A stretch of 64,000 nt of DNA from Nitrosarchaeum sp. (GTDB taxonomy: Archaea > Thermoproteota > Nitrososphaeria > Nitrososphaerales > Nitrosopumilaceae), in assembly GCA_002737445.1 (NCBI GenBank), contig NSIR01000002.1:124001-188000 (forward strand), read 5' to 3'. Shown here in pieces: positions 22,335 through 24,440 of the stretch (positions are counted from its first letter, which is position 1; each line of letters starts with the position of its first letter). The notes beneath the pieces were generated by a model, which was not told where the DNA came from, made no database searches, and saw nothing but the letters and a program-made list of their open reading frames with translations. A program made the translations under genes and the position numbers.

Positions 22335-22762
22335 TTATTTCTATTTTGTTTTAATCCATGCATTATAATCTCTAATGCATTTTCAGCTTTTTCAGGCTTT
22401 GGTAACTGAATCATAAAAACATTATCTTTTCCATATTGAGATTTAGGAGAAGAGATTGCAAGGAGTGAAGTTTTTGCAAGTGATTCAAAAAAGAATAAAT
22501 CTTTGCTTGCATCAATTAATAATTTTTCTACAATTTCCCCTTGAGAAAAAGTCAAAATAATTTCTACAAAAACATGTCCCAATCCATCTTGCAATATGTT
22601 AAGATCAGTATTAATCGCAAGTGATTTACCTGCAACTTTGGATATCATTTGATCATATTTTCTTTCATCTAAAATGATACACGGAATATCTTTACCTTCA
22701 AAATCAAATGTAGTTACACCATCGTGAACTTTGGCAGATAAATTTTTGAGTTCATCAGACAT
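22313..22762 (-). CDS. Hypothetical protein, 149 aa, linked to the antiporter
   Basis: The start ATG at 22762 overlaps the antiporter stop by 8 bp, so it is read from the same transcript. The sequence is a mixed alpha/beta domain with alternating strands (FDFEGKDIPCIILDE, HVFVEIILTFSQGEIVEKLLID). No membrane helix and no nucleotide-binding motif. Its coupling suggests a regulatory or ligand-sensing role for the Kef-type transporter, but that is inference. The last codons run into the tRNA-Gly gene on the opposite strand, which limits how freely they can change. Confidence 0.7.
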   Translation of the reverse strand: MSDELKNLSAKVHDGVTTFDFEGKDIPCIILDERKYDQMISKVAGKSLAINTDLNILQDGLGHVFVEIILTFSQGEIVEKLLIDASKDLFFFESLAKTSLLAISSPKSQYGKDNVFMIQLPKPEKAENALEIIMHGLKQNRNNGAVTGI

Positions 22763-24074
22763 TCTTTTTTTCCAACATTGTGATTACTTTATCGCTGGCT
22801 TTAATCATAAATGGTGAAATAAACGTAGTAACAATACAAATGACTCCCACTAGTGGGAACAAAAATGTACTAATTGCACCAATATCAACGCCAGTTTTTA
22901 TTATAATAATTGAAAATTCGCCTCTAGGTGCAGATAAAGTAAATGCCGAACGAATTGCTTTACTACGCTTTTGACTAAATAAAAAGTTCCCAATTAAATT
23001 ACCACCAAACTTTACAATAATTGCAACTGCAATTAGAGCAATAGCTAAAAACATATAATTTTGAAGTTGTGATACATCCATCAAAGCACCAACTGAAATA
23101 AAGAATATAGCTACAAACATATCTTTAATTGGACTTGCCAATAATTTAGAAACTTCTGAAGATTTAGATTCAGCAACTAAAACACCTGCAAGAAATGCCC
23201 CTATAGCAACGGAAAGTCCAACTAAATTTGCCAATAAAGCATAACCAAAACATACTCCAAGAACACTCAACAATAAAATTTCATGATGCTCTGATGCTGC
23301 AACTCTGTCAATTAAGGGCGGAATAATTCGAGTTCCAATTGTAAATGTACCAACAATCAAAGATACTGCAACTACAATTACAATTATAATAGATTCTACA
23401 GATACAGTTCCAACTAGAGCGATAGATTGTAAAGATGAAATTAAAATTACAGCAATTATGTCCTCTACAATCAGTATTCCCAATACAAGAATTGTTGATT
23501 CATTTCTTATACGTCCAAGTTCTTCTAAAATTTTCACGATAACTGCAGTACTAGAAATTGAAAGTGCTGCAGCAATAAACAAAGAATCCATAAAATTCAA
23601 TCCAAACAAACTTGCAAGATAAAAAATTACACCCAATGTCATAAACAGACCAATGGTACCAATACCAATTGCCATTCTTCCAATACTTTTGATTTTCGCA
23701 TATGGAAATTCAATACCAATTACAAAAAGAAGTAAAATAATGCCTATTTCAGAAAATAAATTTAATGCAGAGATATCAGTCAAAATTCCTATACCCTCCA
23801 ACATATCATACGGGCGTTGACCTAAAGGAAGAATCCAAGACCAAATTGGGGAAATAGGTCCTAACAACATACCTGCAAAAAGATATCCAATAACCAGTGG
23901 TTGTTTAATTTTAAAAAATGCAAGAGTTACAATTGCACCAATAATCATGATAAAAGCTAAATCAGTTACAAATGAAGTACGAGGGATATGTGTGACCTGA
24001 TCCATAAAACTAGATATGTATGGATTCAATGTATCTTGAATTCCGGAGCTAGTTTGAAGGAAAAAATTATCCAT
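22755..24074 (-). CDS. Kef/NapA-type CPA2 cation:proton antiporter
   Basis: About 439 residues with some 12 membrane helices of the sodium/hydrogen exchanger fold. Conserved parts include FSEIGIILLLFVIGIEF, ALSISSTAVIVKILEELG, and GVCFGYALLANLVGLSVAIGAFLAG. There is no C-terminal TrkA-N/RCK domain, unlike classic KefB/C, so it is an ungated CPA2 transporter or is regulated by the coupled 149-aa protein. It exchanges Na or K for protons across the membrane. I prefer ATG at 24074; the frame opens at a TTG five codons earlier. Confidence 0.92.
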   Translation of the reverse strand: MDNFFLQTSSGIQDTLNPYISSFMDQVTHIPRTSFVTDLAFIMIIGAIVTLAFFKIKQPLVIGYLFAGMLLGPISPIWSWILPLGQRPYDMLEGIGILTDISALNLFSEIGIILLLFVIGIEFPYAKIKSIGRMAIGIGTIGLFMTLGVIFYLASLFGLNFMDSLFIAAALSISSTAVIVKILEELGRIRNESTILVLGILIVEDIIAVILISSLQSIALVGTVSVESIIIVIVVAVSLIVGTFTIGTRIIPPLIDRVAASEHHEILLLSVLGVCFGYALLANLVGLSVAIGAFLAGVLVAESKSSEVSKLLASPIKDMFVAIFFISVGALMDVSQLQNYMFLAIALIAVAIIVKFGGNLIGNFLFSQKRSKAIRSAFTLSAPRGEFSIIIIKTGVDIGAISTFLFPLVGVICIVTTFISPFMIKASDKVITMLEKKNV

Positions 24075-24211
24075 GCAGTAATTCAGCAAATTTGATTAAA
24101 AACAGTTGTTAAAGAGCCTAGCAAACAAAAAGATAGTTTTTAATTTAAAATAACAAATACGTGAATTTATCAAATTTGAACCTCTTTATGCCCTATTATG
24201 ATCAATCTAAT

Positions 24212-24275
24212 TGCAGAATGATGAGTAGGTCAGCTGTAAATTATGTAGAGAAATGACCTGGGGTATCTGACTGCA
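24212..24275 (+). ncRNA. Candidate C/D box guide RNA (sRNA)
   Basis: A perfect C box ATGATGA at 24218-24224 and a perfect D box CTGA at 24267-24270 are flanked by a 5-bp terminal stem TGCAG (24212-24216) and CTGCA (24271-24275). The C-to-D span is 53 nt, normal for archaeal sRNAs. Degenerate internal boxes fit: CTGT at 24234-24237 as D' and ATGTAGA at 24243-24249 as C', five bases apart. Such RNAs guide fibrillarin to 2'-O-methylate rRNA or tRNA. The guide sequence before D is TGACCTGGGGTAT. Target is not determined. Confidence 0.65.
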
Positions 24276-24311
24276 TAATTGGTAATTTTATAATTACCTA
24301 AATACTAATAG

Positions 24312-24329
24312 TACGGTACCATACGGTAC
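24312..24329. repeat. Direct repeat TACGGTAC x2 at one-turn spacing
   Basis: TACGGTAC occurs at 24312-24319 and 24322-24329, ten bases apart, around the palindrome GGTACC. It ends four bases before the start codon of the miniprotein at 24333, where a repressor would block a leaderless transcript. No regulator is known for it. Confidence 0.4.
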
Positions 24330-24332
24330 TGT

Positions 24333-24440
24333 ATGATTCAATGTGAATATTGTCCAAGAGGGTTTATTGACACAGCAAACGGATTAGCTGAAAAGACTTT
24401 TCATGAATTACTACATGAACCAGAAGTTGTCAACAAGTAA
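24333..24440 (+). CDS. 35-residue zinc-finger-like miniprotein
   Basis: ATG at 24333, TAA at 24438. The peptide has C4-x2-C7 and H24-x3-H28 (MIQCEYCPRGF ... FHELLH), the spacing of a classical C2H2 finger (C-x2-C-x16-H-x3-H). The N-terminal PRGF in place of a hydrophobic beta-hairpin is atypical. It starts just after an 18-bp direct-repeat element and a TATA-like TAAATACT about 30 bp upstream. Coding status rests on the ligand spacing and the clean ORF. It may bind DNA or a protein. The C/D sRNA candidate lies 58 bp upstream on the same strand. Confidence 0.6.
   Translation: MIQCEYCPRGFIDTANGLAEKTFHELLHEPEVVNK

Follow-up and report, generated by a model that had tools for sequence, protein, structure and literature searches.

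The window analysed here, a 64-kb stretch of a Nitrosarchaeum-like genome (G000, contig C6), carries a gene for a Na+/H+ exchanger and a small zinc-finger-like ORF, and between the two lies a short segment that the first-pass annotation had put forward as a candidate C/D box guide RNA gene (Table 1). The perfect C box, the perfect D box and the 5-bp closing stem (UGCAG 24212-24216 with CUGCA 24271-24275) that it had described were all found, and the plus strand from 24213 to 24274 reads GCAG-A-AUGAUGA-GUAGGUCAG-CUGU-AAAUU-AUGUAGA-GAAAUGACCUGGGGUAU-CUGA-CUGC. A single A separates the stem from the C box. The internal boxes, called fair at first sight, proved recognizable though degenerate, with a D′ box CUGU that matches at three of four positions and a conserved C′ box AUGUAGA; GAAAUGA at 24250-24256 was also considered as the C′ box and rejected, being without conservation among relatives. 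Similarly, the spacing described as normal for archaea holds for the overall length but not for the spacers, which are 9 nt from C to D′ and 17 nt from C′ to D, while those of archaeal C/D sRNAs usually span 10-12 nt, a usual range rather than a strict requirement of membership. The combination of a C box and a D box in this range of spacing with a stem of at least 3 bp occurs only here on either strand of the window; in first-order Markov shuffles of the window the expected number was 0.23 with a minimum stem of 3 bp, 0.05 with one of 4 bp and 0.01 with one of 5 bp.

Table 1. Features of the guide RNA locus (positions of the window)
Feature	Position	Strand	Basis or remark
Na+/H+ exchanger gene	22755-24089	-	Pfam E 1.4e-52
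TATA-like promoter element CTTTATG	24184-24190	+	~26 nt upstream; function inferred
C/D box guide RNA gene	24213-24274	+	approximate mature RNA; conserved 62-nt block, ~100 loci; covariance-model matches
Terminal stem, 5′ strand GCAG	24213-24216	+	pairs in 65/65 sequences; 3 of 4 pairs covary
C box AUGAUGA	24218-24224	+	sequence; UGAUGA core in nearly all relatives
Internal helix, 5′ strand UAGGUC, in C-D′ spacer	24226-24231	+	covaries with 24255-24260
D′ box, degenerate, CUGU	24234-24237	+	alignment; CUGA in most relatives
C′ box AUGUAGA	24243-24249	+	UGnnGA core in 65/65; AUGAUGA in Nitrosotalea-like relatives
Internal helix, 3′ strand GACCUG	24255-24260	+	overlaps 5′ part of D guide
D guide CCUGGGGUA	24257-24265	+	9 bp to 23S UACCCCAGG; N+5 base is G24262
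D box CUGA	24267-24270	+	sequence; conserved in fetched loci
Terminal stem, 3′ strand CUGC	24271-24274	+	partner of GCAG 24213-24216
Inverted repeat GGTAATTTTATAATTACC	24280-24302		just 3′ of the RNA
Near-palindromic repeat TACGGTACCATACGGTAC	24312-24329		between TATTAATA box and miniprotein ATG
Small zinc-finger-like ORF	24333-24440		35 aa

The TATA-like element is kept about 26 nt upstream of the RNA, a suitable distance, in the Nitrosarchaeum and Nitrosopumilus relatives and may be the promoter element of the guide RNA gene. Downstream, the form of the inverted repeat is conserved in relatives, and this repeat could be either a terminator of the sRNA or an operator of the miniprotein gene. 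The near-palindromic repeat that follows has no second occurrence in the window, is conserved in many Nitrosopumilaceae, and looks like an operator. The ORF shows a C-x2-C and H-x3-H spacing (MIQCEYCPRGFIDTANGLAEKTFHELLHEPEVVNK) and gave no Pfam family above the cut-off, and its DNA is conserved even in G021, a genome in which no guide RNA was detected. The position of the RNA upstream of this zinc-finger miniprotein, as first described, is seen in Nitrosarchaeum and likewise in Nitrosopumilus.

A local search showed the element to be present in about 100 fetched loci with differing neighbourhoods. Among distant relatives, conservation is confined to roughly the 62-nt stretch, the matches ending at query position 185 (G022, G025, G029, and G033). 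Further, L091-L095, L105, and L106 have the element beyond the neighbouring gene, on its opposite side, and in the Nitrosotalea-like loci L096-L101 it is found about 700 nt upstream. Since it persists where the flanking gene arrangement differs, the element behaves as a gene of its own. A first covariance model, built from 65 distinct sequences, gave strong matches (E <1e-10) in 78 of the 82 sampled genomes of Nitrosopumilaceae (family f1, named from its loci), weak matches only in G018, G019, and G031, and no match in G021. A second model that included the forms of family f8, taken from its place in the order to be Nitrososphaeraceae, showed the RNA to be widespread in f8 and present also in a further family of the class, f19, down to E 1.6e-7. 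Weak model matches in G018, G053, G079, and G278, and the second match in G043, are without the guide and were taken as chance matches or other sRNAs. Apparently decayed copies were observed as well: in G019 (L227 and L088) the internal helix (UAGAUG/CAUCUG) remains but the guide and the D box are gone, and L053, with altered C box, guide, and D box, looks like another.

The loci for alignment were chosen with a search pattern in which the C box, the D box, and UGGGGUA were set, so the invariance of these three is built in by the selection; the stem and the 5′ strand of the internal helix were left free, and therefore their covariation is not built in. With the boxes, the stem, and the D guide conserved throughout Nitrosopumilaceae and beyond, the candidate is supported, and the loss of boxes in close relatives that would have spoken against it was looked for and not seen. 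The alignment of the 65 sequences showed ten pairs in two helices, and all 650 of 650 cells are standard pairs. Seven of the ten pairs covary with changes on both sides, and the pairing falls to 14-45% when the partner columns are slid by 1-3; RNAalifold, given no structure, also predicted both helices. The closing stem GCAG/CUGC makes up helix 1, and its pairs have the variants AU, CG, and UA. Helix 2, of 6 bp and intact in 65/65 sequences, joins UAGGUC in the C-D′ spacer with GACCUG, which lies towards the 5′ end of the D guide; among the variants of this helix are GGGUA/UACCU, AGGUG/CACCU, GAGUA/UACUU, and CAGAG/CUCUG, with CAGGC/GCCUG and CGGGC/GCCUG in G032 and G260. The hairpin is folded by the window sequence and four relatives with z values of -1.7 to -2.1, and also by G032, and is absent from the minimum-energy fold of G260. 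The f8 orthologues are without helix 2, and their folding is no better than that of shuffles. The C-D′ spacer covaries with the guide at positions -7 to -12; two of these, -11 and -12, are unpaired with the 23S rRNA anyway. The covariation shows that the C-D′ spacer of Nitrosopumilaceae is paired with the 5′ portion of the D guide. The second guide before D′ implied by the first-pass annotation is unsupported.

The guide before the D box fared better, as the interval 24255-24266 indicated for it encloses the actual guide, which has a covarying 23S target. The guide CCUGGGGUA forms 9 Watson-Crick bp with the 23S stretch UACCCCAGG, which corresponds to E. coli 2438-2446. Neither the 16S nor the 23S rRNA of a congener has a longer Watson-Crick antisense match to the D-guide region. 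The target was read from the 23S rRNAs of relatives, as the window's own assembly holds no 23S gene; in this assembly, of 99% completeness, the 16S rRNA was matched in pieces only (contig C1, 228458-229610). Because 61 of 5000 shuffled guides also match in that register, the match within a single genome is suggestive only, and comparison between genomes carried the assignment. The target site is identical across all sampled 23S rRNAs of Nitrosopumilaceae. Guide positions -2 to -10 are conserved and -1 varies (U, A, C), which fits a duplex beginning at -2. In f8, the 23S rRNA reads UACCCUAG (in the longer stretch UUACCCUAGGG) and the guides read CUAGGGUA, that is, a C-to-U change in the rRNA is matched by a G-to-A change in the guide, and the f8 guide duplex has -13.4 kcal/mol with its own target vs. 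-8.8 kcal/mol with the f1 target. This compensatory change gives clean evidence of function, and since guide and 23S rRNA change together between families and the energies follow, the assignment of UACCCCAGG as the target is close to certain. The duplex is rather short, at 9 bp (8-9 in f8). Two other kinds of target were rejected: with the 790-loop of the 16S rRNA (UUAGAUACCC) the D box itself would be paired and just six guide bases would take part, and tRNAs gave weak matches only (30 of 42 checked). By the N+5 rule, the methylated nucleotide is the partner of the fifth guide base before box D. 2′-O-methylation is thus predicted at the equivalent of E. coli 2441, which is position 2538 of the congener's 23S rRNA as aligned with an E. 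coli rrlA of 2905 nt, one more than in the standard numbering. It is very probable that this RNA guides the methylation of a single nucleotide close to the catalytic centre of the ribosome.

We consider, with a probability of about 0.9, that the locus encodes a stand-alone C/D sRNA whose D guide addresses the 23S rRNA for methylation at the 2441-equivalent, and which carries a helix instead of a second guide. The short duplex, the C′-D spacer of 17 nt, and the degenerate D′/C′ boxes count against this reading. The steps proposed are those of the known mechanism by which archaeal C/D RNPs act (PMC7994747). The gene would yield a C/D box sRNA of about 62 nt, in which the terminal stem and the C/D boxes would form a kink-turn, and the D′/C′ boxes a degenerate k-loop. 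L7Ae, Nop5, and fibrillarin would assemble on it; fibrillarin (PF01269, E 2.2e-86) and Nop5 (PF01798, E 2.1e-67) are encoded in the genome. As conservation and covariation show, the D guide pairs with UACCCCAGG beside the peptidyl-transferase centre, and fibrillarin would be expected to methylate the 2′-OH of the C in the N+5 position. Helix 2 has about -5.4 kcal/mol vs. -18.7 kcal/mol for the target duplex, and guide bases -2 to -6 stay outside it; being weak in this comparison, it should open on target binding, and rRNA binding would displace it. Until then, the helix may hold the unbound RNA in a fold that favours kink-turn formation and RNP assembly. A more specific role, as a functional gate, is a tentative idea that we hold to be rather doubtful: the guide would be self-masked, the former second guide now partly covering the first one and leaving a toehold of 5 nt. 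If true, the gating helix would be a means of timing or proofreading guide use.

It is quite unlikely, in our estimate, that the C/D RNP forms but acts mainly as a folding chaperone of 23S 2438-2446, with methylation minor or absent. A chaperone role has been proposed for archaeal C/D sRNAs with guides covering both strands of a helix (PMC4644070), and the 23S target strand does pair elsewhere in the 23S rRNA, with the f19 guides covering complementary 23S stretches. However, the C/D boxes and the N+5 register are retained in nearly every fetched relative, as methylation requires, and the two-strand argument is inapplicable to the RNA of Nitrosopumilaceae, since this has a single guide.

That the RNA is an ordinary dual guide, with the C-D′ spacer GUAGGUCAG as a second guide to rRNA or tRNA, would agree with the standard archaeal C/D architecture and with the f19 orthologues, which have a working-looking D′ guide. 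In Nitrosopumilaceae, however, no consistent in-register target of the D′ guide was found in the 16S rRNA, the 23S rRNA, or 30 tRNAs, the bases adjacent to D′ vary freely, and the remainder of the spacer changes in step with the D guide strand and not with any rRNA, which makes a second guide highly improbable in this family. The f19 loci L281-L286, L288, and L290 hold an orthologous sRNA with a D′ guide of 12-14 nt to the 23S P-loop; this guide, GAGGCUGUCCCAGU, has 14 bases paired with GCUGGGGCGGCCUC in the 23S P-loop of G279, and its N+5 nucleotide is G2251, provided that the AUGA that follows is the D′ box. The f19 D′ guide appears genuine, with Gm2251 as its predicted product, and sRNA-guided methylation at G2251 has been predicted in three other archaea (PMC4644070). 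The two f19 guides are mutually complementary because their two 23S targets are. In the simplest history, an ancestral dual guide may have lost its P-loop arm, and the freed spacer would have become the covarying helix of Nitrosopumilaceae. A helix where the sister family has a P-loop guide raises the questions of how access to the guide is governed and whether Nitrosopumilaceae have Gm2251 at all and, if so, by what means.

Almost no weight can be given to the reading of the conserved block as part of the mRNA of the downstream miniprotein, be it a leader or a regulatory element, as the block lies directly upstream of the miniprotein in Nitrosarchaeum and Nitrosopumilus but persists in the rearranged neighbourhoods described above, and its covariation with the 23S rRNA would be left unexplained.

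Returning to the single-guide methylation sRNA, its near universality in two large families allows it to be annotated immediately in hundreds of genomes, and the methylation site that it predicts next to the peptidyl-transferase centre is precise and open to testing. The literature searched yielded no C/D guide RNA of ammonia-oxidising archaea, Nitrosopumilus included; the N. maritimus genome paper may list predicted C/D sRNAs, so that an orthologue may have been predicted earlier. No Rfam family reached its gathering score, with a best score of 18.7 bits vs. 42, and the best C/D families (snoR160, SNORD45, sR11, and sR3) share only the general C/D architecture.

Compared with the known archaeal C/D box sRNAs (PMC7994747), the RNA is alike in its C box of the form RUGAUGA and D box CUGA joined by a terminal closing stem, in having internal C′/D′ boxes, in its length of about 60 nt, in a guide upstream of D that is complementary to 23S rRNA with the N+5 position inside the duplex, and in a genome that encodes both fibrillarin and Nop5. 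In contrast, it is a single guide without a consistent D′ target, its C-D′ spacer is conserved as a pairing partner of the guide, its D′ box is degenerate, and its spacers are 9 and 17 nt rather than 10-12 nt. The f19 orthologue has the same C/D layout and a D guide, CUGGGGUA, to the same 23S target, but differs in its P-loop D′ guide, and the complementarity within it does not run through the covarying helix of Nitrosopumilaceae. The f8 orthologue (L214-L225, L229, L230, and L233) addresses the same site, with the guide CUAGGGUA fitting UACCCUAG, but is without the internal helix and has C-D′ spacers that vary, a C′-D spacer of about 14 nt, and good C′ boxes. Judged from these comparisons, the RNA is a real, hitherto unannotated member of the known class of archaeal C/D box sRNAs, and, with a conserved helix over its own guide and its unequal spacers, represents a lineage-specific structural variant of that class.
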